From Nitrospirota bacterium (GTDB taxonomy: Bacteria; Nitrospirota; Nitrospiria; SBBL01; JAADHI01), in NCBI GenBank assembly GCA_029261215.1, contig JAJDBT010000082.1:1-64000 (forward strand): a DNA stretch of 64,000 bases. Direction: 5' to 3'. The stretch's first letter is position 1; the number at the start of each line of letters is the position of its first letter. Of the stretch, positions 38,190-64,000 are shown piece after piece. Position numbers and translations under genes: made by a program. The notes below the pieces were generated by a model. That model searched no databases. It saw only the letters and a list, made by a program, of their open reading frames with translations, and was not told the DNA's origin.

Positions 38190-38897
38190 GTGGCAAGCCT
38201 GCGTCAAAAAATTTCAGCCTCGAAGTTTGTCCTTGTTTTAAGCGGGGCAGGGATTTCCGCTGAAAGTGGGATTCCGACATTTCGGGGAAAAGAAGGGCTC
38301 TGGAAAAACCATCGCGCGGAAGATTTGGCAAGCCCTGCGGCTTTTCAGCGTGACCCCAAGCTGGTTTGGGCCTGGTATCGGTGGCGACGGGCCTTAATTG
38401 CCTCAAAAAAAACCAATGCGGCTCATGAGGGACTGGTGCGGCTTGAAGCGCGCATGCCCAGATATCAGTTAATTACCCAAAATGTGGATGGTTTTCATGG
38501 ATTGGCTGGCAGCCGAAAAATGATCGAGCTGCATGGGAATATCTGGAGGATGCGTTGTACGTCTTGCGGAGAAAAAATAGAAAATCATGACCCGGATTTA
38601 CCTGAGCTTCCCAGATGTTTAAAGTGCGAGGCCCTTTTGAGACCCGATATTGTCTGGTTTGGAGAAGGAATCAATGCGAATGATTTAGAGCAAAGTATCC
38701 AGAGTTGCCGAGCCTGTGATTTGATGCTGGTGATTGGAACCTCTGCGGTGGTGCAACCTGCCGCTTCGTTTGCCTCAATCGCTAAAGAAGCGGGCGCCTA
38801 CCTCGTGGAAATCAATCCAGTACCTTCTCTTTCAGGCTTGTCGGATGTCACGCTGGTCGGAAAAGCGGCCGAGATTGTTCCGAAAATCGTTGATTAG
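38190..38897 (+). CDS. cobB: NAD-dependent protein deacylase (sirtuin, SIRT5-like class)
   Basis: The 235-residue sirtuin has the NAD motif GAGISAESGIPTFRG, TQNVDGFH, the catalytic His115 (HGN) and a zinc site of Cys123, Cys126, Cys143 and Cys146. Tyr63 and Arg66 form the YxxR pair that in SIRT5 and CobB recognises succinyl or malonyl groups, so desuccinylase activity is likely besides deacetylation. It starts at GTG with a weak ribosome site. Its 3' end overlaps the convergent oxidase gene by 4 bases. Confidence 0.93.
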   Translation: MASLRQKISASKFVLVLSGAGISAESGIPTFRGKEGLWKNHRAEDLASPAAFQRDPKLVWAWYRWRRALIASKKTNAAHEGLVRLEARMPRYQLITQNVDGFHGLAGSRKMIELHGNIWRMRCTSCGEKIENHDPDLPELPRCLKCEALLRPDIVWFGEGINANDLEQSIQSCRACDLMLVIGTSAVVQPAASFASIAKEAGAYLVEINPVPSLSGLSDVTLVGKAAEIVPKIVD

Positions 38898-40792
38898 GGT
38901 AAGGACGATTTTTCGGCTGAGGGACTTGTACTCCCTGAAGTGACGGGCTGGGTTTTCATTGCATAGGTTTTTGTTGTTCTTCGATTACTGAGCCAAAAGA
39001 TCGCCGTGGTAATCATCCAAAAAACCACCACATTAAAAATGACCATTCCAACCGCATAAGTGAGGGAAGGGGTTTCGGCCCAGGGCGTCACATCCTTGAG
39101 TATCTCAGTCACATGCCAATCCAGTCGAACCGAGGAACGAATATATCCCATTAAAACCATCGTAGTGGAAATAAAGACGGCGAGCGCAAACAGGGCAAAC
39201 GCGCCAGAGCTGGGCAGTTTTCCCCACTGAATTGGCCCGATCATTTTTGATTTCCTTAGCATCAGAATATTGAGGATCATCCCTCCGGCCAAGGCCCCGA
39301 TAGCGGCCATAAATTGAGGAAAGGCCAGGTTCACCCGGACATTGGCTGGAATGAAAAAACCGTAAACGCCAATAAAGATGACAAAAGCCTCCGCCCCGAT
39401 AAACATCAGCGCCATCGCCCAGTTTCCCCATCGGGCCCATGACACCGTGATTTCTTTATTGCAGCGATGAAAGATGATGTAACAAAGCCCGAAACTAAGA
39501 ATCATGGTATTGATGGCCGTATTTTTTGCCGCCATTGTTCCGTAGTACCCGACGATGGGGTGCTGGGTTCCGCCCATCGCTGCAAATTCACCCCGGCTGG
39601 CGGGGAGGGTATGCGGGGTGGCCCAAATCAGAAAGGCGGCGGCGAGGATAAACATCGTGTATTTGACCAGATGCTGGTAGCGCTCGGACCCTAGCATACG
39701 GGTTGTACCCTGCCAGAGATAATAAGTAACCGTCATAAAAATCAGTCCAATCAGCATCGCCTGCATGATGAAGGGCCAGCTCAGCTGGCCTCCCATTAAA
39801 GTAACCCCCATCCGTTGCCGGTAAATAAAAATTTCTTTTGCAAACCAGTAGCCGGCAAAAGGAAGAATAAACAGATTGACGATGGCGATCATAATCGAGA
39901 CATGCCCCATCCAGTCGTAATGTGCGCGTTTTTCAGGGTCGCGGGTGGTTAGCATTTGAAACGCGGCGTATGCCGCAATGACCGCCCCGCTAAACATGAT
40001 GCTGGCCAATATGCGATGAATGTTTAAGGGATTCCAAAGGGGGGTGTTGACCGCATTCCAGAGATTTCCAAGGTAGCGACCCTCGGAATCGACCCCGGCG
40101 GGCGACATCATAAAAGCCATTAGGGCATTGGCCAGATAGATAATCGCGAGGCCATTGAAGCAGGTCGCGGCGCCCAAAGCCAAATGCCGCCATTTTGCAG
40201 AGCCTGTTTTCCAGCGATCCCATGTTTTTGTGTAGGCATAGAGCAGTACATTTTCTAGAAAAAAGACAAGCACATAAAGGTAAAGCACAGGTTTGAAAAC
40301 AGAAGACATATATCTCGAAAATTCGCTATACAAGAAAATAAATGCGCCGAGCAAGGCGCATCCGAAAACAATGGTGAGCGGGTAAAAAGGCAGTCCAATT
40401 CGCATGAATTCATGGGCCAGGGCATCATGTTTACTGGCTTGGGATGGATCTGCTTTTCGACGGAAAAAGCTGAAAATTTCGAGCATCCATGCGATCATCG
40501 GGACACCCAAAATAAAGCTTCCGAGAAAAAAGTGTTGTTGAATAAGCACCCAAAGGATGGAACGGTTGTCGAGCTTGCCTCCCCGATCATAACTTTGCGG
40601 ATAGCTGAGCTTAGGTGCGGGAGGCCCTGATATGGTGCCCGGCGTTTTAAAGTAGATATCCTCAGCCACTTCAGCCGCGCTGGCTTGCGAAGGATTCTCT
40701 TTCGCAAAAATGAATGTTGTTGAAAGCAGTACCAATGCTGGCAGTAGAAAAGAAAGAGAGAGTCCCATCCAAGTTTGGCGACGAATCATCAT
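38894..40792 (-). CDS. Cytochrome bd-like oxidase subunit (CydA-like, paralogue 1)
   Basis: This 632-residue polytopic membrane protein has a signal-like N-terminus and about fourteen membrane helices. It matches the bd-like oxidase of Nitrospira and relatives rather than classical CydA, and it has no CydB partner. His residues shared with the 42.7 kb paralogue lie in QQH of the first core helix, LAHE, HRI, AHYDWM, TPHTL, QHP and WHV. These are the candidate heme b ligands. By homology it is a membrane heme protein thought to reduce oxygen, but its mechanism is unproven. Its likely partner cytochrome c is at 32.9-34.1 kb. Its 3' end overlaps the sirtuin gene. Confidence 0.88.
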   Translation of the reverse strand: MMIRRQTWMGLSLSFLLPALVLLSTTFIFAKENPSQASAAEVAEDIYFKTPGTISGPPAPKLSYPQSYDRGGKLDNRSILWVLIQQHFFLGSFILGVPMIAWMLEIFSFFRRKADPSQASKHDALAHEFMRIGLPFYPLTIVFGCALLGAFIFLYSEFSRYMSSVFKPVLYLYVLVFFLENVLLYAYTKTWDRWKTGSAKWRHLALGAATCFNGLAIIYLANALMAFMMSPAGVDSEGRYLGNLWNAVNTPLWNPLNIHRILASIMFSGAVIAAYAAFQMLTTRDPEKRAHYDWMGHVSIMIAIVNLFILPFAGYWFAKEIFIYRQRMGVTLMGGQLSWPFIMQAMLIGLIFMTVTYYLWQGTTRMLGSERYQHLVKYTMFILAAAFLIWATPHTLPASRGEFAAMGGTQHPIVGYYGTMAAKNTAINTMILSFGLCYIIFHRCNKEITVSWARWGNWAMALMFIGAEAFVIFIGVYGFFIPANVRVNLAFPQFMAAIGALAGGMILNILMLRKSKMIGPIQWGKLPSSGAFALFALAVFISTTMVLMGYIRSSVRLDWHVTEILKDVTPWAETPSLTYAVGMVIFNVVVFWMITTAIFWLSNRRTTKTYAMKTQPVTSGSTSPSAEKSSLP

Positions 40793-42538: not shown

Positions 42539-42670
42539 TGCATTGAGGCGCTCAATTTAGGCGCATGTACAGGTAGAAGCAGCACAGTTCGAGATCGTTA
42601 GGTTTTAATAGTGAAGCGGGCAGAAGTGGGTCGGTTAGCTTTTCCCGAATTTCCTTGAGGAGGAAAATTG

Positions 42671-44605
42671 ATGTTAAATCTAAGTGGCGAGAAAAAAAAG
42701 AAGGTAGGAGCTTGGCTCTTACTGAGCATGATCGGCATGCTCGTTCTTCTCCCATTTGCCCCGGCTGTCGTTATGGCAGCAGAAGAGGCGGCAGTGGAAG
42801 AGGCGAAGGAGCCGGAAAAAGCAAAAGACGTTTTTTATAAAGAAGAGGGTGAGTTTGGTATTGTTTCAGGTCCTCCAGCCGGAGAGCTTGTGTATCCAGA
42901 TGATTATGGTTCTTATGGCGACTTTCAGAGTCGTACGATAATCTGGATTTCAAACCAGCAGCATCTGTATTTTGGAAGTTTTGTTTTGGCTGTGCCTATG
43001 TTTGTATGGGTTATGGAGCTGATCGGGATTCTTCAATATGAAAAGAACCCGAAGGTGGGTAAAAAGTTTGATGATCTTGCGCACGAAATGATGAAGATTA
43101 GTTTGACCGCTTATTCCGTGACCGCTATTTTGGGCGGAATTTTGATTTTTTCGTTTCTCGCTTTGTATCCAGGTTTCTTCCGCTATCTTTCCGGAATCTT
43201 TAAACCTGTAATGCACATTTATGCACTGCTTTTTATTTTGGAAAGTGGTGTTTTATATGTCTATTACTACGGATGGGATAGCATGAATGACGGAAATGGT
43301 GACTGGAAATGGAGTCATCTTTCTCTCGGAACCATTTTAAATGCCGTCGGTATTGTTTTGATGGTGATGGCCAACACCTGGGTGAGTTTTATGATGTCAC
43401 CCGCCGGGGTTGATGCGGAAGGGCGTTTTCTTGGAGATATCTGGAAGGTCATGCATAACCCCTTGATGGTGCCGGTTGTGGTGCATCGTATCCTTGGGAA
43501 TGCCGCCTTTGGTGGTGGTGTTGTTGCCGCTTATGCGTCCTTTAAGTTTCTTTCAGCTAAAACACTTGAAGAAAAAGCGCATTATGACTGGATGAGCTAT
43601 ATCGCCATGTTTATGGGGATTCTTGCGCTGATCCCGCTTCCATTTGCGGGTTATTGGTTGATGAGAGAAATTTATGCTTATCGTCAGCAGATGGGGATTA
43701 CCCTGATGGGTGGATTGTTGGCTTGGGTGTTTATTATGCAGGCGACAATGATTGCAACCCTGTTCATTACAGTGAACTATTATCTTTTTCAGGCCATGGG
43801 TCGTATGCCGGGTTCCGAACGGTATTACAAGTACTTCAAGGTCTTGTTGGCTATTTTGGTGGTGGCCACCATTGCCTGGTTGACTCCTCATACGCTCGTG
43901 ATGACACCTGCAGAATTGAAAGCCATGGGTGGCGCACAGCATCCGGTTGTCGGAAACTATGGGGTGATGTCGGCAAAGAATACAGCCATCAATACCATGA
44001 TTACGACGACGGTGGTCAGTTTTATTATCTATCAACGATCAAACTTTAAACTTACAGTGCCGTGGGCCTGGAAGGGAAACATCTTTCTTGCCATGCTGAT
44101 CTTAGGAGCGGAAGTCAATATCCTGTTCCTGGGCGTATACGGATACTTTATTCCGGCAAACGTCCGTATTGGACTGTCTGTTCCCCAGGTGGCTTCAACC
44201 TTGAGCGTGCTGTTTATAGGTGTCGCCGTTAATACGAAGATGTTGAAAGGCGCTGAGTCTATCGGAGAGATCCGTTGGGGGAAAATGTCTGTGCGGGGAG
44301 CCTATGCGCTTTTTATGCTCGCTGTGGCATTTACCTGGACTATGGCTGTGATGGGTTATCTTCGCTCCTCTGTCCGCCTTCACTGGCATGTCAATGAGAT
44401 TCTTCGAGATAACTCCCCTTGGGCGTTTACAAACCCGCTCGGTTATGCAGGGAATATTAACTCGTTGAATGTTCTTCTATTCTGGACGATGTTGCTCTTT
44501 GTCTTCTGGTTAAGCGCCCTTGCTGGTGCAGGTAAGAAGAAAGTTGAGGCTGAAGAGGCAGCGGCTGCGGCAGTTGGAAAGGCCGTCCCGGCTGGAAGTC
44601 ACTGA
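42671..44605 (+). CDS. Cytochrome bd-like oxidase subunit (CydA-like, paralogue 2)
   Basis: This 644-residue polytopic protein is a clear full-length paralogue of the minus-strand gene at 38.9-40.8 kb. It has a cleavable-looking N-terminus (VVMAAEE), then about fourteen helices. QQH near residue 98 starts the core, and the shared histidines are in LAHE, VHRI, AHYDWM, TPHTL, QHP and WHV. GAGGAGG lies 7 bases before ATG 42671. The overlapping TTG start three bases earlier is less well spaced. The C-terminus is Ala/Glu-rich. It heads the run of three cytochrome genes that ends at 48.8 kb, and is presumably the oxygen- or quinone-reacting core of that complex. Confidence 0.9.
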   Translation: MLNLSGEKKKKVGAWLLLSMIGMLVLLPFAPAVVMAAEEAAVEEAKEPEKAKDVFYKEEGEFGIVSGPPAGELVYPDDYGSYGDFQSRTIIWISNQQHLYFGSFVLAVPMFVWVMELIGILQYEKNPKVGKKFDDLAHEMMKISLTAYSVTAILGGILIFSFLALYPGFFRYLSGIFKPVMHIYALLFILESGVLYVYYYGWDSMNDGNGDWKWSHLSLGTILNAVGIVLMVMANTWVSFMMSPAGVDAEGRFLGDIWKVMHNPLMVPVVVHRILGNAAFGGGVVAAYASFKFLSAKTLEEKAHYDWMSYIAMFMGILALIPLPFAGYWLMREIYAYRQQMGITLMGGLLAWVFIMQATMIATLFITVNYYLFQAMGRMPGSERYYKYFKVLLAILVVATIAWLTPHTLVMTPAELKAMGGAQHPVVGNYGVMSAKNTAINTMITTTVVSFIIYQRSNFKLTVPWAWKGNIFLAMLILGAEVNILFLGVYGYFIPANVRIGLSVPQVASTLSVLFIGVAVNTKMLKGAESIGEIRWGKMSVRGAYALFMLAVAFTWTMAVMGYLRSSVRLHWHVNEILRDNSPWAFTNPLGYAGNINSLNVLLFWTMLLFVFWLSALAGAGKKKVEAEEAAAAAVGKAVPAGSH

Positions 44606-44619
44606 CGGGGATTTAGTTT

Positions 44620-44650
44620 AATAAAGGGGGCCAAGTTGGCCCCCTTTATT
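44620..44650 (+). other. 13-bp hairpin inside the oxidase operon
   Basis: AATAAAGGGGGCC (44620-44632) pairs with GGCCCCCTTTATT (44638-44650) over a 5-base loop. It lies between the oxidase gene and the diheme cytochrome gene. It could act as an attenuator lowering expression of the cytochromes, or as a processing/stability element. Confidence 0.65.
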
Positions 44651-44681
44651 AGAGATAGAAGAAAGGAATAGAGGAGAAGGT

Positions 44682-45959
44682 ATGGCTAAGAAAAAGGGTT
44701 CAGGAGTCATAGTAGTAAAGGTTGCGCTTTGGTACATCACCATTTTGAGTATTTTTGCAGCGTATACCAACTGGCTGCCACAGATTCGAGGAGATGCCCC
44801 GGAAGCCGCTGAAGCAATTGATGTTTCAGCGATTACGCCTGAAGGCTTGCAGGAAATGGGCGGGATGATTATTTTCGGGACGGATGATCCCCTCGGTACA
44901 CTCGCGAGAGGAGAAGGTCCGATTGGAAAAGGTCAGTGTCCGCTCTGTCATCGTTTTTTTATGGAGCAAAAAGCGGATCGTTGTCCGAACCTGATCGCAT
45001 TAAAAACAGAGCCTCAATTGCTGCTTCAGGTTAGCGAAGAGGAACGTTCACATGAACGTGTCAAAGAACCGCGTTATGAAGAATTTAAGAAACTGCATGC
45101 GGATGGTGAAAAGAACTCCGGGCATGTTCCTCACGCGGAAACGGGTGGACAGTACTTGATCGAATCTGAGTACTGCCCGAACTGTTTTGTGGTCGAGGGT
45201 TTTGGCTTGAAGGGAACAAATGATACCGAAAGCCCAATGCCGATTATCAATAAACCTCCAATTTTGCTGGTCGATACCGAGATTGTCGCTGTCGTAAGCT
45301 TCCTGCAGATGAGGGATGATCCTACCAAATGGACCGCAAAGGATGACTGGGAAGCCTATTTTGGTAAGGATTTGGCTTCCGAAGGTGGAGATGAAGCACC
45401 TGCAGAAGTTAAACCTGCCGGACCGCCTGTTGCCTTAGGCTCTGAAACACCGGAAGAAATTGTGACAAAAATGACTTGTTATGCTTGTCATAAAATTCCG
45501 GGGATCTCAGTGGCCAAAACCGGAGCGATTGGTCCTCTTTTGATTGAGGGAACAAATGCGCCAAATCGGATTAAGTCACCTGAATACAAGGCCGCGATGA
45601 AGGCGGGTACCGCCCATGCGACGACAGCACGTGAATATATCATTGAATCAATTATGGATCCGGGAGCCTTTATTGTTCCTGGTTTTGCCGACGACATGAT
45701 GAAGGATTTTAAGCATAAATTCACTGTGTCTGGTCTGGACGTGCTTGTAGATCATTTGATTGCTCAGGATGAAGCGGCGGCGCTTGCCGATGGTTTAGAC
45801 CGTCTTGCAAATGAAAAAGAAGGCCCAATCAAAAAACCGGAAGCAAAAGTCGAGACAGGTGAAGCATTCGCCAAAAATCAGTCGAAAACAAATGAGATGA
45901 CGATCCAGGTTTCAAACAAAAAGCTGATCGAAAACTCAACGTTTATCGGCTTGAATTAA
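44682..45959 (+). CDS. Membrane-anchored diheme cytochrome c (oxidase-associated, paralogue 2)
   Basis: A single N-terminal membrane helix (about residues 9-28) anchors two cytochrome c modules with CPLCH at 86-90 and CYACH at 266-270. Candidate Met ligands lie in SPMPI and DDMMKDF. Each module ends in a similar block (YLIESEYCPNCFVVEG and EYIIESIMDPGAFIVPG), so the protein arose by internal duplication. The CPNCF in the first block is not a heme motif. AGAGGAGAAG supports the start. It follows the bd-like oxidase and a hairpin, and is a paralogue of the gene at 32.9 kb. It probably passes electrons to the oxidase. Confidence 0.91.
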   Translation: MAKKKGSGVIVVKVALWYITILSIFAAYTNWLPQIRGDAPEAAEAIDVSAITPEGLQEMGGMIIFGTDDPLGTLARGEGPIGKGQCPLCHRFFMEQKADRCPNLIALKTEPQLLLQVSEEERSHERVKEPRYEEFKKLHADGEKNSGHVPHAETGGQYLIESEYCPNCFVVEGFGLKGTNDTESPMPIINKPPILLVDTEIVAVVSFLQMRDDPTKWTAKDDWEAYFGKDLASEGGDEAPAEVKPAGPPVALGSETPEEIVTKMTCYACHKIPGISVAKTGAIGPLLIEGTNAPNRIKSPEYKAAMKAGTAHATTAREYIIESIMDPGAFIVPGFADDMMKDFKHKFTVSGLDVLVDHLIAQDEAAALADGLDRLANEKEGPIKKPEAKVETGEAFAKNQSKTNEMTIQVSNKKLIENSTFIGLN

Positions 45960-45990
45960 GCAATTGAACGATAAAGGAGGCAAATTAGTT

Positions 45991-46992
45991 ATGAGTAAGT
46001 TTAAAATAAAGGCTTTCTTTGCCCAGCTCCTGGCGCTGATCCTGGCTGCACCGATGATCGCCTGGGCCGGTGGTGGAGGTGGCCCTTTTGATGCCGGTAC
46101 ATTCTCCGCCATTAAAGTGGGCTTGGTGGTATTTGCAATTTTTTCCGCGTGGTTGATTAAAGATAAAATGGGACTTCCGCTCCCCAAGTTAATCCAGGCG
46201 CCATTGTTATGGATTATCTGTTACATCGGGTTTCGAGTGATCCTGCAGCCGCCCATCCCATTTTCATTGCTTGCAATGTACATGGGGGTTTGTACGGTGT
46301 GTATCTTTCTGTACTGCTCCCTCACGCGGCCTTCATGGGAGGAATTTTCACACCCCATCGCAGTGATGTTGAGAGAAGATCACGCAACAGCAAAGATGTC
46401 TCGTTATGCGACATTTTTGATTATCCCGGGCTTGATTGCCGCTCAAACATACAATCAAATGCTTCCGAAATTTGGAGAGCCGATTGAGTTGAGAACGGTT
46501 CATCCCGCACCACCAGCAAGCATTAATGTTCATAAAAAGTTGGTGACACTCCAAACAGCGGAAAACCCTTTTCGTATTGGAGATGATGGCAACTACCTGA
46601 AGGTTGGAGACGAACAGAAATATTTTGGTGGCAACGCCTGGACAGGTGATGTGCCAAAATTTCTTCAAGAAGTTCAGCAGGGTGGTGTTGTTTTCTTTGG
46701 AACAGCCGGTTGTTTCTTTTGCCATGGTGATAACTTGGATGGTAAAGGGCCCTTCTCGTTTGCCTTTAATCCGATTCCCGCAAACTTCGCGGATCCTGGG
46801 ACGATTTCTCAGTTACAGGAAACATTCGTGTTCTGGCGCGTCGCTAAAGGTGGCCCGGATCTTTCTCGGGAAGCTTTTCCTTGGGCCTCAGCAATGCCGC
46901 CATGGGAAAAACATTTGACGACAAACGAGATCTGGAAAGTGATTATCTTTGAATACTGGCACACAGGATTCTTTCCAAGAACTTGGGGATAA
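45991..46992 (+). CDS. Integral membrane monoheme cytochrome c
   Basis: The 333-residue protein has a signal-like helix followed by three or four membrane helices within residues 10-152 and a C-terminal periplasmic cytochrome c domain with CFFCH at 241-245. The Met in SAMPPWE is the likely distal ligand. ATG 45991 is preceded by GGAGG, while an in-frame TTG 27 bases upstream is unlikely. The combination of a multi-helix membrane part and cytochrome c suits a subunit tethering electron transfer to the oxidase. It lies between the diheme cytochrome and the cytochrome/EB_dh fusion, separated from each by short gaps. Confidence 0.88.
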   Translation: MSKFKIKAFFAQLLALILAAPMIAWAGGGGGPFDAGTFSAIKVGLVVFAIFSAWLIKDKMGLPLPKLIQAPLLWIICYIGFRVILQPPIPFSLLAMYMGVCTVCIFLYCSLTRPSWEEFSHPIAVMLREDHATAKMSRYATFLIIPGLIAAQTYNQMLPKFGEPIELRTVHPAPPASINVHKKLVTLQTAENPFRIGDDGNYLKVGDEQKYFGGNAWTGDVPKFLQEVQQGGVVFFGTAGCFFCHGDNLDGKGPFSFAFNPIPANFADPGTISQLQETFVFWRVAKGGPDLSREAFPWASAMPPWEKHLTTNEIWKVIIFEYWHTGFFPRTWG

Positions 46993-47057
46993 TCTCTTTT
47001 TGGACGATTTGTTATCCCTTTTGAACGGGATGAGATTTGATAGGGGGAATTAGAAAA

Positions 47058-48830
47058 ATGATAGAAAAGATAGAAGAAAAAGGCGGCCTGAAAGGGGCAA
47101 TCTTGGGGATGGGGGCTGTTATTGCGACAACCTTGGTCTTTGGATTGGCAATCCCCGGACAAGCACAGGTATTTAGAGTGGATCCAGCACCCATGGAACC
47201 ATCTCCAGGAAAATATACGACAGGTACCTTCTCCGGCAATCCGGAGTCTGGTAAAGGCGTGTATTTCAGGAAATGTGTCTGGTGTCACGGGCCGGATGGT
47301 GCTGGCGATGGGCCTTCAGCGATTCGCTTGGTGACCAAACCGAGGAATTTTAATCAGGGAACCTTTAAAATTCGTCATACAGCAAGTGGTGAATTGCCGA
47401 CGGATGAAGACCTTTTTAACTCGGTGACTCATGGTCTTCCAGGTTCAGTGATGCCCGCTTGGGGAAGTATTCTTTCGGTCAATGAGCGAAAAGATGTTAT
47501 CGCGTTTATCAAAAAAGAGTTGGTGAAAGATCGACAATTTGATGACCCGGATGAAGAAATAACCGTCATTGACTATGGTACTCAGATCCCATCTTCTCCA
47601 GAAAGCATTGAGCTCGGACGTGACATTTTTATGAACAAGGCCAAATGTGTAGAATGTCATGGTGTCGAAGGTCGTGGAAATGGTAACTTGACCCAGAGAG
47701 ATGACTGGGGTTTTCCCATCTTCCCGGCGAACCTTCAGAAGCCCTGGAATTTGAGGGGAAATCGACGTGATCCTTACAATCCAAGAAATATTTTTCGTGA
47801 GGTTTCCACTGGATTGAATGGTACTCCGATGCCTTCCTTTAGGGATGAGCTTTCGGAAGAAGAAAGATGGCATGTCGCGAACTTTGTCATTTCATTGACA
47901 GAGGTCAAACGGCCAATTGACCCTGAAACGAGTCGTCCGATGATTGGATTTGTCATTAAATCCCGATATGTCCCAGATTCGGGTATCGTGCCAGATACAC
48001 CAACAGATGAAAAATGGTTGACGGTTCCTGCCCAGTTTGTGGGAATGGCAAGCCAGATTATTCAGCCGCCACGTCATTTTATCCGAACAGTGGATGATAT
48101 CCGTATTCGCTCACTTTACAACGATACGGAAATGGCACTTTTATTTGAGTGGGATGATCGGACTGAAAGTCATTTGAATCCGGATGCTGAAGCCAAATAC
48201 GACTTCAAACGTCTCTCTTCAGAGTCTTTTCCTGCAATCAACACGACACAGTACACGCATGAAAATGACGGCGAAAGAGGACCTTTGAAAGACGTGAATC
48301 CAGAGCCCGTTGGTGTCTATAATGATGGCATTGCGGTTCAGTTTCCTCAGGTTTGGGAAACACTCGCTCCGCCATTAAAACCATATTTTGTGCATGGTGA
48401 TGAGAAACATGGCGTGGATATCTGGAAATGGCAGGCGGATGGGACCGTGGAAGAAATCGAAGGTCACGGCATTGATGCCTTGCAAGTGAGAGAGGATAAA
48501 AACGTCAAAGTCACTTATGCCAAATGGGAAAATGGTCGTTGGCAAGTGATTATGAAACGGACTTTGTTGACAGAAGATAAAGAAAAGTCAGCACAGCTTG
48601 TGAATGGTACAAACATCCCAATGACTTTTTTTGCCTGGGATGGAGATGCCGGTGAAGTCGGTGGTCGTATGGCGCTTTCCACATTTTATTACTTAATGAT
48701 GGAGCCACCGATTCCAACTACAGTTTACATTTATCCTCCGATTGTCTTCTTTGTCTTGATTGGTTTGTTGAGCTGGGCGCGAGCTGCAGCGATTCAATTC
48801 AAGAAAGATCATGAAGGAGAAGAAGGTTAA
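47058..48830 (+). CDS. Diheme cytochrome c fused to an ethylbenzene-dehydrogenase-like heme b domain
   Basis: The order is a signal peptide or anchor (to about residue 36, PGQAQ), two cytochrome c domains with CVWCH at 73-77 and CVECH at 197-201, an EB_dh-type beta-sandwich domain (about 320-560) related to heme b subunits of DMSO-reductase-family enzymes, and a C-terminal membrane helix (about 566-584). GGGGGA precedes ATG 47058. The gamma-like subunit normally takes electrons from a molybdoenzyme such as nitrite oxidoreductase, and no molybdoenzyme gene is in the window. It may pass electrons from a periplasmic donor to the oxidase. It is the last gene before a strong terminator. Confidence 0.88.
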   Translation: MIEKIEEKGGLKGAILGMGAVIATTLVFGLAIPGQAQVFRVDPAPMEPSPGKYTTGTFSGNPESGKGVYFRKCVWCHGPDGAGDGPSAIRLVTKPRNFNQGTFKIRHTASGELPTDEDLFNSVTHGLPGSVMPAWGSILSVNERKDVIAFIKKELVKDRQFDDPDEEITVIDYGTQIPSSPESIELGRDIFMNKAKCVECHGVEGRGNGNLTQRDDWGFPIFPANLQKPWNLRGNRRDPYNPRNIFREVSTGLNGTPMPSFRDELSEEERWHVANFVISLTEVKRPIDPETSRPMIGFVIKSRYVPDSGIVPDTPTDEKWLTVPAQFVGMASQIIQPPRHFIRTVDDIRIRSLYNDTEMALLFEWDDRTESHLNPDAEAKYDFKRLSSESFPAINTTQYTHENDGERGPLKDVNPEPVGVYNDGIAVQFPQVWETLAPPLKPYFVHGDEKHGVDIWKWQADGTVEEIEGHGIDALQVREDKNVKVTYAKWENGRWQVIMKRTLLTEDKEKSAQLVNGTNIPMTFFAWDGDAGEVGGRMALSTFYYLMMEPPIPTTVYIYPPIVFFVLIGLLSWARAAAIQFKKDHEGEEG

Positions 48831-54913: not shown

Positions 54914-55060
54914 GATGACCTCTAATCATTTTAAGGCATTTTAACTTTCCAATAAATCGATGTCAATGAAGAGGGGTTCTTTCGAATAATGCATGGAGGG
55001 GCGTAATTGTCTATCTGCATAAGATATGTTACCATGCCAGTGGTATTTTTTAGGGCTAAA

Positions 55061-56044
55061 ATGACACCATTTTACCGTTACTTTCGGATGATTTCTGTCC
55101 TGCTTTTTTTTGCCTTGACGGCTTGTGAGCAGCGGGTGAATATTTTTTCGATCGGGTTTAGCTATCATAAACCTGAAATTGTGTATGTTGGAACGTCGGG
55201 CGGTGGCTTTTATAAAAGCATTGATGGCGGGGACACTTTTAACAAGCTAACCGAGGGCTTAACGAGTTACAATATTGCTTCTATTGCTGTAAATCCCTCC
55301 CTTTCCTCCTTGATTTATGTTGGGTCTTACGGAGACAGTGTCTACCGGAGTGTCGATAGCGGAGGCCACTGGAGTGTCAGCCGAAATGGCCTGGCCGATA
55401 ATGTCGGGACGCAGGCTGTGAACGCGGTTATTGTGGATCCCGTCGAATCTAAACGGGTGTATATCGGGACAAATCACGGTGTATACCTCACAACAGATGG
55501 CGGCGGGGAGTGGGTCGATGTCAATATCGGGATGGCCAACCGATTTGTTATTTCACTCACATTTCATCCAAAAAACAGAGCAATTATCTTGGCGGGAACC
55601 AATGAAGGCATTTTTATTACAACCAATTCGGCGAAACAATGGCGCATTATTGCAAAGGCAACAAAAGGCTGGGCTGTGAACAATATTCAGTTTGACCCCA
55701 TTAATCCTGATATTATTTATGCAGGAACGAGCCATGGCATTTTGAAATCAACAGATGGGGGCGCGAACTGGGAAGAGCGAAACAAGGGCTTGTCCACCTC
55801 TTTTGCCTCATCGATTGTTGTTGATCGAGAGGATGCCAATATTGTTTATGCGGGAAATAATGATGGGGTTTATCAAACAAAGGACGGTGGTGAATCGTGG
55901 CGCTTACTCTCAACATCACCCTCTTCTGTCTTGACCCTTGTTGCCCACCCTTTAAAAAAGAAGACCCTGTTTGCGGGAACGATGAGGGGATTATTTAAAA
56001 ATGAAAACGAAGAAGACGTTTGGACAGGGTTAAAAGTAAAATGA
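55061..56044 (+). CDS. Beta-propeller lipoprotein with BNR-type repeats
   Basis: A lipoprotein signal ends in LTAC, so the protein is lipidated and periplasmic. The rest is seven repeats of about 42-45 residues, each ending in a pattern like VYVGTSGGGFYKSIDGG or IYAGTSHGILKSTDGG followed by W or F. This is the BNR/sortilin-type seven-blade propeller. ATG 55061 has AGGG nearby, while the earlier in-frame ATGs at 55007 and 55034 would put extra residues before the signal. The next gene starts inside its stop (ATGA overlap). No catalytic motif is seen; a binding or assembly role is likely. Confidence 0.82.
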   Translation: MTPFYRYFRMISVLLFFALTACEQRVNIFSIGFSYHKPEIVYVGTSGGGFYKSIDGGDTFNKLTEGLTSYNIASIAVNPSLSSLIYVGSYGDSVYRSVDSGGHWSVSRNGLADNVGTQAVNAVIVDPVESKRVYIGTNHGVYLTTDGGGEWVDVNIGMANRFVISLTFHPKNRAIILAGTNEGIFITTNSAKQWRIIAKATKGWAVNNIQFDPINPDIIYAGTSHGILKSTDGGANWEERNKGLSTSFASSIVVDREDANIVYAGNNDGVYQTKDGGESWRLLSTSPSSVLTLVAHPLKKKTLFAGTMRGLFKNENEEDVWTGLKVK

Positions 56045-57087
56045 ATGTATGTGCAGCATTTGGGTCGATGAAAACCAAAGGGCCTCTCCGACGCTTGGCG
56101 TCTCCTTTCTTTTTATTTATGATTTTAAGCATTTTTATTCTGGGCTGTCCAAGACAACCTAAAATGCCGGATCGTTCCGAAATATCAACCGGATGGGATA
56201 TCCAGTCTGTCCCGGTCGATACCTCGCTGGGCGGGATCTTTTTTTTAAATGACAAAAAAGGCTGGGTCACAGGAAATAAAGGCGTGATTCTCCATACTGA
56301 AAACGGCGGTAAAGAATGGTTTATTCAGGAAACCGGGACAAAAGTGCTTATCGTCTCGATCTATTTTTTGAATGACCAGCTTGGCTGGGCGGTTGGAGAT
56401 AAAGGGCTCATTGCGCATACGACGGATGGCGGAAAAACCTGGGGGCCTCAGGCCAGTGGCGTAAAAAAAGATCTCACAGATATTTATTTTATCGATGAAA
56501 AACATGGCTGGGTTACGGGCGTGAAAGGAAACCTCCTTTCAACCGATGACGGCGGCCTGCATTGGCAAAAGGCCGGGGGCGAATCACGCCTGACAATGAA
56601 CTCTGTTCGGTTTACGGATCCAGATCATGGATGGATTCCAGCCCAGAAAGGCAGTTTGCTCTTCACCGAAAATGGCGGAAAAAATTGGTCCATGAGGGCG
56701 ACCGGCACGAAAAAAGACTTGCTTCAAATCTTTTTTGTGAACCAAAAAACAGGCTGGATTGTGGGAAGCATGGGTTTGATTTTAAAGACCCAGGATGGTG
56801 GAAATACGTGGATCCCTCAAGAAAGTGGATTAACGTCCTTATTTGCTGATGTTTCCTTTGTGGATGAAATGCATGGCTGGGTGGTCGGCGCGGGCGGGGC
56901 TGTCTTGCAAACAAAAGACGGGGGCACAAGCTGGGAGCAGCAGACGACGGGGACTTTGCAGTTTTTGACGGGTGTTCATTTTACCAATAAGACCGTCGGT
57001 TGGGTCACGGGTACCAAACAGACGATTCTTTATACAGAAACAGGCGGTGAGGTCGCGACAGAACCGGTCGCCTCTCCTTCTTCATGA
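56041..57087 (+). CDS. Ycf48-like beta-propeller lipoprotein
   Basis: A lipobox (FILGC) after a hydrophobic segment marks a lipoprotein. Seven repeats follow with the pattern GWVTGNKGVILHTENGG or GWAVGDKGLIAHTTDGG followed by W, matching the Ycf48/HCF136 propeller. In cyanobacteria this family helps photosystem II assembly, but relatives occur widely in non-photosynthetic bacteria and no photosynthesis gene is present here. The start at 56041 overlaps the upstream stop by ATGA, giving translational coupling. The two propeller proteins differ in repeat type, so they are probably partners rather than a recent duplicate pair. Confidence 0.83.
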   Translation: MNVCAAFGSMKTKGPLRRLASPFFLFMILSIFILGCPRQPKMPDRSEISTGWDIQSVPVDTSLGGIFFLNDKKGWVTGNKGVILHTENGGKEWFIQETGTKVLIVSIYFLNDQLGWAVGDKGLIAHTTDGGKTWGPQASGVKKDLTDIYFIDEKHGWVTGVKGNLLSTDDGGLHWQKAGGESRLTMNSVRFTDPDHGWIPAQKGSLLFTENGGKNWSMRATGTKKDLLQIFFVNQKTGWIVGSMGLILKTQDGGNTWIPQESGLTSLFADVSFVDEMHGWVVGAGGAVLQTKDGGTSWEQQTTGTLQFLTGVHFTNKTVGWVTGTKQTILYTETGGEVATEPVASPSS

Positions 57088-59657: not shown

Positions 59658-59686
59658 TTGACAGATCTTGTTTTCTAGAATAGAAT
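59658..59686 (+). promoter_or_regulatory. Strong sigma-70-type promoter of the secreted-protein locus
   Basis: TTGACA (59658-59663), a 17-base spacer and TAGAAT (59681-59686) match consensus at 11 of 12 positions. The resulting leader of about 115 bases contains an inverted pair AGTAATA/TATTACT that ends just before the ribosome site. Confidence 0.8.
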
Positions 59687-59806
59687 ACATACATGATTAT
59701 CTAAAAATAGTTATTTATGTTGTATATTCGTACTATTTTGACGCAGTAATAAAAACTTGTATTCGCAGTACTCACAATAACCTCTCTGTATTACTAGGGG
59801 GTAAAA

Positions 59807-60916
59807 ATGTTTGTAGAGCATACTTTACGATTCCAGAGCAAGTCTATTTCTGTTGAAGGCCGCGTCCTTGCCTTAGCTGTTGTTTTTTCTGCTCTTTTCC
59901 TCATCTTTCCTTCCTCCGTTAAGGCTCAATTTGGCGGTGGCGGTGGTGGTGGTAGTATTTCCAGGACACTCCCTTCTGCAACTGTTACCCCCCTTGCTTC
60001 AGATGCCCCGGCCCCTTGGGGTACTGACCCCGCGACTGTCTCGGGACTTATTGTGGAAGAAGTTATGCAAAGCCCCGGCTTTTTGCAGGAAAAAGTGACG
60101 AATGGCAGTGGCGAAAGTTTCTTTTTGCAGAGCATGACGTCATCGGATTTTTCAATGGAGAGTTATGCAAAGTTTGTGAATGGCAGCACCAATGACCCTG
60201 AAGGAAATGTAATTTTTAAACAGGAAATCTCCGACCCTGCTTTTGGTCTGCATGAAACAACGAAAATGGACAGCTTTAGGCAGCCCATCAGCATTCATTC
60301 TGATATCACAGAGAGAAAGGTTGCGGCGCTTACGGGCGGTTTAAATCAAATGGATATGCATTTTAGTCAAGTGCCTTTTTTTGACAGCAGCGCAGGGAAA
60401 GTTCTGGTGCGTCAGGATATCGGGATCTGGATGACCAGTTTCGCAGGTATTATGCCGCTTGATATTACGAGAAGTGAAAACTTTACTTTGTCGGCTGGAG
60501 ATCTCCTTCATGAGGTGGCGACCAGTATTCCCAGTGGTGGCGGCGGCGGTTTTGGTGGTGGCGGTGCGAGTAATGGTACGATTGATTGGTGGAATGATTT
60601 AGAGGCCGTGAAGATTATTGATCCTTCCAACAACCAGCTGCTCAATTTTAGCCGATGTAATGATTTTGGTGATCCGTCAGGAAGGAATAGTTTGTCTTTT
60701 AACAGTAATCAGGGATCACGTGGCGGATGTTTTGGCGGAGGAGCCTCAAGTTCTACAAGGCCATCTATTCCTACTCATGATGGTGACAATTTTCAGTTAA
60801 CCCCCATCAATTGGGAAAGATGGGGTGGAAATGGAAGTGATTCGTTTTCGAGTGGGTTGTCTACTAATTTCCCTGACGGAAGCGGTGGCGGTGGCGGTGG
60901 TTTTGGTGGTTTTTAG
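59807..60916 (+). CDS. Secreted phi-x-Q family protein A, glycine-rich
   Basis: I do not recognise this 369-residue protein. A signal peptide ends in SVKA|Q near residue 40. The mature part has Gly-rich runs near its N-terminus, middle and C-terminus (GGGGGFGGF end), and between them short strands of the form hydrophobic-x-Gln: FLQEKV, FFLQSM, FKQEIS, FRQPIS, FSQVPF and VRQDIG. Two Cys lie in the C-terminal third. It shares the strand motif and the A|Q cleavage site with the next two genes. GGGGGT precedes the ATG. A fibrous or surface-matrix protein is plausible, but no function can be stated. Confidence 0.82.
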   Translation: MFVEHTLRFQSKSISVEGRVLALAVVFSALFLIFPSSVKAQFGGGGGGGSISRTLPSATVTPLASDAPAPWGTDPATVSGLIVEEVMQSPGFLQEKVTNGSGESFFLQSMTSSDFSMESYAKFVNGSTNDPEGNVIFKQEISDPAFGLHETTKMDSFRQPISIHSDITERKVAALTGGLNQMDMHFSQVPFFDSSAGKVLVRQDIGIWMTSFAGIMPLDITRSENFTLSAGDLLHEVATSIPSGGGGGFGGGGASNGTIDWWNDLEAVKIIDPSNNQLLNFSRCNDFGDPSGRNSLSFNSNQGSRGGCFGGGASSSTRPSIPTHDGDNFQLTPINWERWGGNGSDSFSSGLSTNFPDGSGGGGGGFGGF

Positions 60917-60996
60917 CTTTTAGTTGGTGTTTGGTGTCAGTGAAAATGTTTTTATTGTACGGTAAGTGGGTTTCTTAATATATAAGGAGGTATGGT

Positions 60997-61728
60997 ATGA
61001 TTTTAAAAAAAGCAAGTTTTTTCCTCTTCATAACCGGCATTCTGATGACTGCGGGTATTGGAATGGCTGAGGCACAGGTGGGGACGCCATCTTTTACAGA
61101 TAATCCCTCGCCATTCCCTTTTGTCCATTCAGGGGTAGATGGGAGTGGTGTTCCACTTTCAGGGACTTTGGTGACCTCGGAAGGGTCAATCGGAAGCGGT
61201 AGCTTTTTTACCCAAGAATTTGTGAATGTTGACATTGGGGCAGGACCCCAGCTCGCCATTCATTCCGTTTTAGAAGCCTCTGCGATAGGGACTTCTTTTA
61301 TTCAGGAAGCCTTTGTTTTGATGGGAAGCCAACGGAGCCCCACAAACCAGAACAATACGACATCCCCGGTTGTTCCAGCTCCAAATCAGACCAGCATTGC
61401 TTTTAGACAAACAATGACAGGCCCCGGTTTCTCGACGACTTCCAGTTTGGATCCTGGCCAGGACATTCACATTCATCAACAAGTGGATGGGTCGGCTGCC
61501 GTTTCTGGTCAAGCAGGAGGTCTAAGTTTCACTAACGTTGACATTCTTCCTAATTTTGTAGTCAAAGGACAAGAATCAACAGACCCGTCTTGCGGTGCAA
61601 CCGCGTCTTTCTGTACCACTATTTCCCAGGAAGTGGATGTGGTTGATGGCGGTGGTGCCACCATTTTTAGTCAGAACATGGACTTTACCACTGGTGGTTT
61701 ACCTGTGATCGTCCAGGACATCCCGTAA
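60997..61728 (+). CDS. Secreted phi-x-Q family protein B
   Basis: A signal peptide ends in AEA|Q (residue 26). The mature 217 residues hold seven hydrophobic-x-Gln strands, FFTQEF, FIQEAF, FRQTMT, IHQQVD, ISQEVD, FSQNMD and VQDIP, separated by Gly/Pro/Asn/Ser-rich turns, plus two Cys (SCGATASFC). The block from FFTQE to FIQE aligns with the same region of protein C, so the two are diverged copies. AAGGAGG precedes the ATG. The recurrent Gln at a fixed place in strands recalls stacked-strand fibres such as curli, though the spacing is not curlin-like. Confidence 0.82.
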   Translation: MILKKASFFLFITGILMTAGIGMAEAQVGTPSFTDNPSPFPFVHSGVDGSGVPLSGTLVTSEGSIGSGSFFTQEFVNVDIGAGPQLAIHSVLEASAIGTSFIQEAFVLMGSQRSPTNQNNTTSPVVPAPNQTSIAFRQTMTGPGFSTTSSLDPGQDIHIHQQVDGSAAVSGQAGGLSFTNVDILPNFVVKGQESTDPSCGATASFCTTISQEVDVVDGGGATIFSQNMDFTTGGLPVIVQDIP

Positions 61729-61781
61729 TCCATAGTATATAAATATAGTGGGAAAACGCATTGATTAAGGAGGCATACAAC

Positions 61782-62432
61782 ATGAAAACAAAAATTAAAA
61801 TCCTGGGTGCCATGACCTTGGGTGTTCTCTTGTCTGCAGGAATGGCGGAAGCACAGACAACGACATTTAATGATGGAACCTGTAACAGTCAGGCCACTTG
61901 TGGGGTTACGGGCGGCACAAACCGTCTATTTGAAAACACCGGTGATAATGTCTTTTTTCAAGAGCAGGTCTCCATTGGTGGCCAGCTTTTGAATCATATG
62001 ATTATTCGTAGCAAACCGGACGGCTCGGCAGGTTCTGAATTTATTCAAGAAACCTTCACGCCGGGTGGTGCTGTAACTGGAGCAACGACCACGACTTCAA
62101 CAAATAACATTACCTTTAAACAAAGTTTGAAGGCTGCAACGGATGGTGCTGGTGTTCCTTCTGTGGATGTGTTGGTTCGTATGGATAATCTTAATATTAT
62201 CGCACGAACTGGGACAGAGGCGGACTTGGTTGGAACAAATATTAATGTCACCCAGAATATCGTGGATGCAAGTCAAGGTTTAGTTCGAAATGAATTAACC
62301 TTGACTCCGGATGGTACGGGTGGATTTAATACGAGTATTGACCAGCTTGTGAATGATCCTGCCCTGCCAGGCTTTAGTTCCAGTATCCTGTTTGATACGG
62401 GGTCACCTGCTGTTGTAGATCAGAGCTTCTAA
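61782..62432 (+). CDS. Secreted phi-x-Q family protein C
   Basis: The ATG at 61782 has TAAGGAGG upstream and yields a normal signal peptide ending in AEA|Q. An in-frame start 21 bases earlier overlaps the ribosome site and is rejected. The 216-residue protein has a two-Cys start (TCNSQATCG) and strands FFQEQV, FIQETF, FKQSLK, VTQNIV, IDQLVN and VDQSF. It is the last of the three tandem genes, followed by a strong terminator. Confidence 0.82.
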   Translation: MKTKIKILGAMTLGVLLSAGMAEAQTTTFNDGTCNSQATCGVTGGTNRLFENTGDNVFFQEQVSIGGQLLNHMIIRSKPDGSAGSEFIQETFTPGGAVTGATTTTSTNNITFKQSLKAATDGAGVPSVDVLVRMDNLNIIARTGTEADLVGTNINVTQNIVDASQGLVRNELTLTPDGTGGFNTSIDQLVNDPALPGFSSSILFDTGSPAVVDQSF

Positions 62433-62455
62433 TATCTGATCTATGTTTGCCCTCT

Positions 62456-62513
62456 AGAGGGGTCTATGGAAGGGAACCGCTTTTTGGGTTCCATCCATAG
62501 ACCCCTCTTTTTT
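62456..62513 (+). terminator. Strong intrinsic terminator after the secreted-protein genes
   Basis: AGAGGGGTCTATGGA (62456-62470) pairs with TCCATAGACCCCTCT (62494-62508), with a further inner GGAACC/GGTTCC pairing, and is followed by T6. It separates the tandem genes from the porin gene. Confidence 0.93.
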
Positions 62514-62639: not shown

Positions 62640-64000
62640 ATGCGTTTATTGTATTCATGTTTTGCGATTATTGTTTTTTTTTTATCACCCCTAATCACGA
62701 CACTATCTGCTGCTGAACCCGAGGGTTCTAAGTGGTTTAGTTGGGGGGGGTATCTAAAAAATGAGACAGCCTTTCGATTTAGAGAGCCCGTCTCATTTAC
62801 AAAAATTCGGAACATCATTTATTTGGAAGCCAGTGCTGACCTTTCGCCGGGACTCCATTTTTATGCGTCGGGTTGGGGGTGGCTTGATGCTGTATACCTT
62901 TTTGCCGATTACGATACCGTCAATCCTCCAAATGACCCGAACCTGCCCCTGGCATTTGTTTCACAAAGAGCGGAAACGGATAACCGCACCTTTGCCGAAT
63001 ATCGTGAGCTCTATTTTGATTGGTCCCTGGAAAAACTCGACCTTCGCATTGGAAGGCAGATTATTGTGTGGGAACAGCTCCTGGGGTTTCGGATCCTCGA
63101 TGAAGTCAATCCACTCGATTTTAGAGAATTCATTCTTCCTGATCTCATTGATTTCAGGATTCCTTTATGGACATTAAAAGCCAATTATTATGCGGGCCCC
63201 TATCAGGTGGAGGCCTTGTGGATACCCGAGCTTGTGCCGCACAAACCTGCCCCGCCAGGGTCTGAATGGGAATTATTTCAGAGTCTTCCAGGGCAGGAAA
63301 CCCCAGCGCAAAACTTCAGAAATTCAGAAGCCGGTTTGCGTGTTTCTCGGGTGCTGCAAGGTGTTGATTTGGCTTTTAGTTATTTCTACACCTGGGATGA
63401 TTTTCCAACACCCTTTCGAGAATATACCGGCTTTCGGTTTGCGACCCCTCCTGGAAAATGTATTCCGACATCACTGCAATTTGACCAACCCGTTACAGAT
63501 CCTGATTGTGGTCCTGTTTTTCATCCAGAGTTTAAACGAATGCATATTTTTGGTGCAGCAATGATGTTTAATTTAAATCGCTTTATCTTGAAAGGGGAAG
63601 CCTCTTACATTGTGGGGAAATATTTTGGCACCCGCTTGGCGGATTTAGATGGCGATAATCAACTGGATCATAACGGCGCGTTGAAGCGGGATCATGCACG
63701 CTGGGGGATAGAGGTCGATAGTCATTTTTTTGGGGCTGAGTTTTCTGTAGCCATTTCACAATGGATTATTTTTGGTCATCGCCCCGTTTTTTTCCAGGAT
63801 GAATATGATACTTTCATTAGTTTTTTTACACGACGTGTCTTCTTCTCGGGGTCCTTAACAGGACAGTTTTTCTTTTTATATCTGATTAATAATGAGGAAG
63901 TATTGGTCAAACCGAAGGCAACTTACCGCATAACAGATAATATTCAATTGGGTGTGGGGGCAGATTTATTCTATGGGCACACAGAAACCTTATTGCCTGA
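62640..64000 (+). CDS. Outer-membrane beta-barrel (DUF1302-like porin), 5' part
   Basis: The frame is open from ATG 62640 to the window end, about 453 codons, with a signal peptide ending near SAA|EP. The body is rich in alternating aromatic strands and carries motifs such as LRIGRQIIVWEQ, LDEVNPLDFREF and LWIPELVP, which match the DUF1302 family of outer-membrane proteins often near secretion or respiration genes. GTAGGG lies upstream of the start. T10 (62674-62683) lies in the signal-peptide codons and G8 (62743-62750) near codon 36, so slippage would switch the frame. The 3' end is beyond the window. Confidence 0.85.
   Translation, partial: MRLLYSCFAIIVFFLSPLITTLSAAEPEGSKWFSWGGYLKNETAFRFREPVSFTKIRNIIYLEASADLSPGLHFYASGWGWLDAVYLFADYDTVNPPNDPNLPLAFVSQRAETDNRTFAEYRELYFDWSLEKLDLRIGRQIIVWEQLLGFRILDEVNPLDFREFILPDLIDFRIPLWTLKANYYAGPYQVEALWIPELVPHKPAPPGSEWELFQSLPGQETPAQNFRNSEAGLRVSRVLQGVDLAFSYFYTWDDFPTPFREYTGFRFATPPGKCIPTSLQFDQPVTDPDCGPVFHPEFKRMHIFGAAMMFNLNRFILKGEASYIVGKYFGTRLADLDGDNQLDHNGALKRDHARWGIEVDSHFFGAEFSVAISQWIIFGHRPVFFQDEYDTFISFFTRRVFFSGSLTGQFFFLYLINNEEVLVKPKATYRITDNIQLGVGADLFYGHTETLLP

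Follow-up and report, generated by a model that had tools for sequence, protein, structure and literature searches.

We identified three tandem secreted proteins, here called A, B, and C, at the head of a conserved eight-gene island in a Nitrospirota genome, and we give a rough probability of 0.45 to the reading that they are subunits of an extracellular matrix or fiber with outer-membrane partners of their own. The window, that is, the whole 64,000-nucleotide stretch of DNA analyzed here, is part of a 140-kb contig, and the genome comprises 3.4 Mb in 125 contigs. A, B, and C have no usable match in Pfam, NCBIfam, PADLOC, or PDB sequences and fall into no enzyme or ligand-binding family, in agreement with the preliminary description, which knew of no named family with their pattern of short strands of the form hydrophobic-x-Gln (phi-x-Gln). 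The B/C family and the multicopy A family are thus a previously unnamed protein set in a conserved island.

Gene organization and expression signals

The three genes lie head to tail on the plus strand, with the order, Shine-Dalgarno sites, and coordinates as first described. Gene A (59807..60916; 369 aa) encodes a predicted signal peptide ending in VKA|Q (59807-59926), a glycine tract, a conserved domain of about 300 aa whose first half carries seven conserved phi-x-Gln motifs, and a glycine-rich tail; its conserved cysteine pair is at residues 284 and 308. Gene B (60997..61728; 243 aa), preceded by the Shine-Dalgarno sequence AAGGAGG at 60984..60990, has a predicted signal peptide ending in AEA|Q (60997-61074), seven invariant motifs, a cysteine pair at 199 and 206, and a pI of 4.05. 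Its paralogue, gene C (61782..62432; 216 aa), has the same Shine-Dalgarno sequence at 61767..61773, a predicted signal peptide with the same AEA|Q end (61782-61853), six invariant motifs, cysteines at 34 and 40, and a pI of 4.1. B and C are each single copy in this genome, and both lack tryptophan and tyrosine. The A|Q end of the signal peptide, noted at the outset for all three proteins, proved invariant in A, B, and C across the aligned orthologues.

A sigma-70-type promoter (59658..59686, plus strand; TTGACA-17-TAGAAT) matches the consensus at 11 of 12 positions. In each of the seven orthologous loci, TTGACA followed by a 17-base spacer is again found 87-155 bases upstream of A, although the surrounding sequence has diverged; the -10 element is a perfect TATAAT in genome G001 (12/12) and TAGAAT, TAGAGT, or TAAGCT elsewhere. 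Downstream of C, on the same strand, a 53-nt hairpin followed by a T run forms an intrinsic terminator (62456-62508; -40.5 kcal/mol, z -6.0), and strong hairpins are also found 3' of C in the orthologues, with a T run that is poor or unclear in three Manganitrophus loci. The near-consensus promoter and strong terminator first reported from this one locus are therefore borne out by its relatives, and A-B-C is a probable single transcription unit. In codon adaptation, C ranks highest of the 47 genes of the window, at the level of ribosomal proteins, while A falls in the upper fifth and B is average.

The outer-membrane barrel reported directly downstream is a member of the DUF1302 family (484 aa; 62640..64000 on the plus strand within the window, ending at contig position 64094), with a PF06980 match of E = 4e-14 and 52.9 bits against a gathering cutoff of 23.2. 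It is the fourth gene of the island, and four more follow on the contig, to about position 74403. These encode a 270-290-aa secreted probable outer-membrane protein (OMP), a TPR protein whose long C-terminal part would form a barrel, an Ig-like protein carrying CarboxypepD_reg, and, in stretches long enough to include it, a PKD/laminin-G/kelch/fn3 protein. The locus had been called self-contained; this suits the trio as a probable transcription unit, but the trio heads a longer conserved block.

Distribution of the island and the family of protein A

B is present in 8 of 270 genomes of the class, three from the genus of the window and five from a second genus that we infer to be Candidatus Manganitrophus (including Candidatus Manganitrophus sp. 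GAC4, CP114561), and nowhere else among the 270. The relatives in the window genus include the metagenome-assembled genomes (MAGs) FO_M_Nitrospirota_01.1 and OFTM336, the latter presumably, judging by its name, from a study of the Oslofjord tunnel, whose main text does not name this MAG. When C was searched against 396 genomes of the phylum, a single further match, weak and with internal stops, was gained, and a pattern scan with A over 84,980 species returned this lineage only. No plasmid-borne copies of B were found, and none of the three proteins matched anything in four draft genomes (G003-G006).

The gene order of the island is kept in both genera, and the trio-bearing genomes have orthologues of the DUF1302 barrel with at least 64% identity. 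A third genus is represented by genome G007, where the gene series is kept from the DUF1302 barrel onward; its contig opens with the final 46 codons of a C-like gene (...FDTHISQ...QQNF), which score 11 bits when compared with the C profile. The upstream neighbor of the island is ftsY in the window genus, and in Manganitrophus it is an rlmN-like gene together with a Big_5 Ig-like protein; the ftsY-to-uvrB stretch of G004, G006, and G007 holds no such block. With these differing neighbors and empty stretches, the block behaves as one unit, gained, lost, or moved in its entirety. Farther upstream in the window, two adjacent secreted beta-propeller proteins of the BNR/YCF48 type (55007-57087), conserved in two close relatives, lie just before phoH-ybeY-ftsY.

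Profile comparison over the mature regions matches B to C with a probability of 97% (hhalign, E 1e-10), and the mature-only score of 63 far exceeds the maximum of 22 from 60 column shuffles; by sequence, then, B and C are true paralogues of one family. The case of A is different. Its profile score of 34 against B/C is above 100 column shuffles (maximum 30) and below the maximum of 38 from shuffles in 15-column blocks, so only the short motif is common to A and B/C, and homology is not established. Nor is A merely a glycine-rich partner, as it had been portrayed, since between its glycine tracts lies the conserved domain of roughly 300 residues, and A is a multicopy family of its own. The window genome has four copies, and relatives have up to six matches plus broken remnants. 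In a tree, the copies from the Manganitrophus islands and those from the islands of the window genus form separate groups, each with local duplicates. A-paralogue remnants split over several frames, such as those at G002:C7:39051-39729 and G001:C62:6461-6911, show continuing birth and death of A copies.

Two further features of the A family were observed. In Ca. Manganitrophus GAC4 (L012:6304-7620), the A gene enters another frame at its 3' end, giving a 438-aa product with a basic tail; this is probably an assembly error, as several neighboring long genes also look frameshifted. Moreover, a lipoprotein of about 560-610 aa often lies 5' of A paralogues or of the island (L115:672-2501, L114:717-2600, L011:4324-6003); it carries repeated, propeller-like 'HISYRD ... 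LKYA.C' units and, in L011, a Big_5 domain, and it may be a second partner of this family.

Glutamine motif, composition, and predicted structure

The recurring phi-x-Gln strands were the main claim of the preliminary description, and that observation is confirmed. There are eight motifs in A, seven in B, and six in C, with shuffle P values of 0.002, 0.12, and 0.04, respectively; these single-sequence counts are modest, and not significant for B, and we rejected them as stand-alone proof. Across aligned orthologues 51-85% identical to the B and C of the window, however, the phi-x-Gln glutamine is invariant at 20 of 21 positions, whereas this is true of 5 of the 15 glutamines outside the motif (Fisher p = 1e-4), and at the level of sequence this invariance is strong evidence for the motif. 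The residues around the motif glutamine alternate, with a hydrophobic residue at -2 by definition, at +2 in 61% of cases, and at +1 in 18%, so that the glutamine would lie on the hydrophobic face of the predicted strand, as expected for stacked strands. The spacing from motif to motif is irregular.

The composition of the proteins is also distinctive. All three are acidic in mature form in the window genome (pI 4.0-4.5), and B and C are low in lysine and arginine, with 33-41% QNST. A cysteine pair is conserved in all aligned orthologues of each protein (A in G001 has two cysteines more), which suggests one disulfide per protein. Tryptophan is absent from all B and C orthologues, which have one tyrosine or none. 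Among sampled genes for proteins of at least 180 aa, which average 7.9 tryptophan and tyrosine residues per 200 aa, B is the only one without either, joined by C once C is read from its own ATG.

AlphaFold2 (AF2) yielded no usable fold for B and a partial one for A. The model of B, from an eight-row alignment, has a pLDDT of 34, with strands drawn centered on the phi-x-Gln motifs. The A domain, modeled from 16 sequences, reaches a pLDDT of 47 overall, with values of 77-87 for residues 11-70 and under 50 over most of the remainder; the partial model is an all-beta meander, reliable at residues 11-70, with a few further strands drawn with confidence. A Foldseek search of the PDB with the B and A-domain models returned nothing below E 0.07.

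Comparison with known surface-fiber systems

Curli subunits are secreted through CsgG, are low in lysine and arginine, and consist of phi-x-Gln strands with the glutamine on the inner face. The trio resembles CsgA/CsgB in being secreted, in its low lysine and arginine, in its phi-x-Gln strands, in the tandem paralogues B and C, and in the outer-membrane protein nearby. Unlike in curli, its glutamine is followed by E/S-phi rather than x-G, each protein carries a cysteine pair, and the motif spacing lacks the regularity of curlin or solenoid repeats. None of the three proteins matches the curlin family PF07012 at E<=1, and the family is absent from the window genome and from every trio-bearing genome. 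The CsgG-domain proteins of the window genome are weaker ones only (best 104.5 bits), and none is near the A-B-C locus. The suggested likeness to curli, taken as membership, was thus rejected by both the curlin and the CsgG searches. The one relative that bears curli (G005) lacks the trio and has a CsgG of 208 bits beside its curlin genes, and this single genome hints that curli and the trio may be alternative surface-fiber systems. Its locus (G005:C43:38603-41325) combines the strong CsgG with several curlin-repeat genes, in a member of the same family that lacks the island. In the window genome, a cluster of several CsgG-domain proteins (G000:C104:17201-26883) recurs in most relatives, away from A-B-C.

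The Fap amyloid of Pseudomonas consists of secreted tandem subunits (FapB/FapC) with a dedicated outer-membrane barrel, FapF, in the same gene block. The trio shares this arrangement of tandem secreted proteins with a barrel in the block, but the neighboring barrel is a DUF1302 protein rather than FapF, and searches of Pfam and NCBIfam matched none of A, B, and C to a Fap family model. As to the DUF1302 family itself, DUF1329 is a partner known from other DUF1302 loci; in contrast, the island barrel is accompanied by A-B-C and the TPR-barrel protein, and no DUF1329 partner was found among the Pfam-scanned island genes.

Possible roles of the three proteins

We favor the reading that A, B, and C form an extracellular matrix or fiber. 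They would be exported through Sec, as their signal peptides predict, and may then reach the cell exterior as acidic, putatively disulfide-bearing beta-repeat proteins that assemble into a fiber, sheath, or matrix. The strands may stack, bringing the invariant glutamines into register along the hydrophobic face. B and C would be paired paralogous subunits of the assembly, and A, with its glycine-rich linkers and several copies, might serve as a larger subunit in an accessory or linking role. The barrels inherited with the trio (DUF1302, the second small OMP, and the TPR-barrel) could export or anchor A-B-C, and the Ig-like and kelch/fn3/PKD proteins might decorate the surface.

Several lines of evidence point to this reading: the conserved A|Q signal peptides; the invariance of the motif glutamines and their place on the hydrophobic side; the motif-centered strand predictions and the lack of an enzyme or ligand-binding family; the low lysine and arginine and high QNST of B and C; the conserved promoter, terminator hairpins, and high codon adaptation of C; the conserved order alongside outer-membrane barrels and adhesin-like proteins despite differing genomic surroundings; and the absence of curli repeats from trio genomes, together with the absence of the trio from the sole relative with curli repeats and a strong CsgG. 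Against it stand the low confidence of the predicted models of B and of most of A, the irregular motif spacing, a ribosomal level of codon bias in C only, and a curli complementarity seen in one genome. The cysteine pair and the many proline and loop insertions would equally suit a globular beta-sandwich.

A rival possibility, somewhat unlikely in our estimation, is that the three build no structure and are instead globular beta proteins, sandwiches or meanders, soluble in the periplasm or secreted, whose task would be to bind a ligand or metal for the DUF1302/OMP transport machinery next to them. The constant neighborhood with three outer-membrane barrels would be natural for such proteins, as would the conserved cysteine pair of each protein, the fact that whole domains and not motifs alone are strongly conserved, and the beta-meander of the partial A model. 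However, none matches any binding-protein family or solved structure, the repeated glutamine motif has no obvious binding-site logic, and there are few conserved histidines and no conserved cysteines beyond the pair.

S-layer proteins, too, are acidic and low in lysine and arginine, and the same composition in the trio, its three proteins under their own strong promoter and terminator, and the surface-adhesin-like genes of the island would fit a regular, non-amyloid surface layer or sheath on the outer membrane, held by the Ig-like and kelch proteins. We consider this improbable, as the three are on the small side for an S-layer lattice, Pfam revealed no S-layer domain, and the codon use of B gives no sign of very high expression. 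It is less probable still that B and C are small outer-membrane beta-barrels: C ends in phenylalanine and several short strands are predicted, but B ends in proline, neither protein matches an OMP family, and the near-lack of tryptophan and tyrosine in every orthologue leaves no aromatic girdle.

The manganese-oxidizing lineage

The island supplies small, testable candidates found only in a manganese-oxidizer lineage, with a conserved promoter and co-inherited outer-membrane partners. If A, B, and C are fiber subunits, they would represent a glutamine-motif fiber family separate from curli and possibly a protein scaffold for biogenic manganese oxide. A published genome comparison of Candidatus Manganitrophaceae centers on electron-transfer and carbon genes, its main text dealing with Cyc2, PCC, terminal oxidases, and complex I, and text searches of that main text gave no mention of A-B-C-type secreted proteins and no named structural matrix protein (PMC9040806). 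The open literature yielded nothing on Manganitrophus matrix proteins. Manganitrophus-like MAGs with Cyc2 and PCC homologues have also been reported in the Oslofjord tunnel study (PMC11442690). Nodule formation is described for the manganese-oxidizing lineage in the text of PMC9040806, and this, with the lineage and composition of the proteins, makes a role for the trio in manganese-oxide biofilm or nodules an attractive idea. A more specific version, which we regard as a long shot, is that the island encodes a dedicated extracellular scaffold of the manganese-oxidizing lineage, in which B and C, free of tyrosine and tryptophan, would form an oxidation-resistant stacked-glutamine fiber, and Mn(III/IV) oxide nodules would be deposited on it, keeping the mineral off the cell.

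Elsewhere in the window, two cytochrome bd-like oxidase subunits (645 and 632 aa; 42668-48830 and 38894-40792) were observed, with no MrpD-like gene seen near them. Their neighbors are cytochrome c proteins and a cytochrome c/ethylbenzene-dehydrogenase-type subunit, and the region resembles the Manganitrophaceae TO_1 terminal oxidase complex as presented in the text of PMC9040806.
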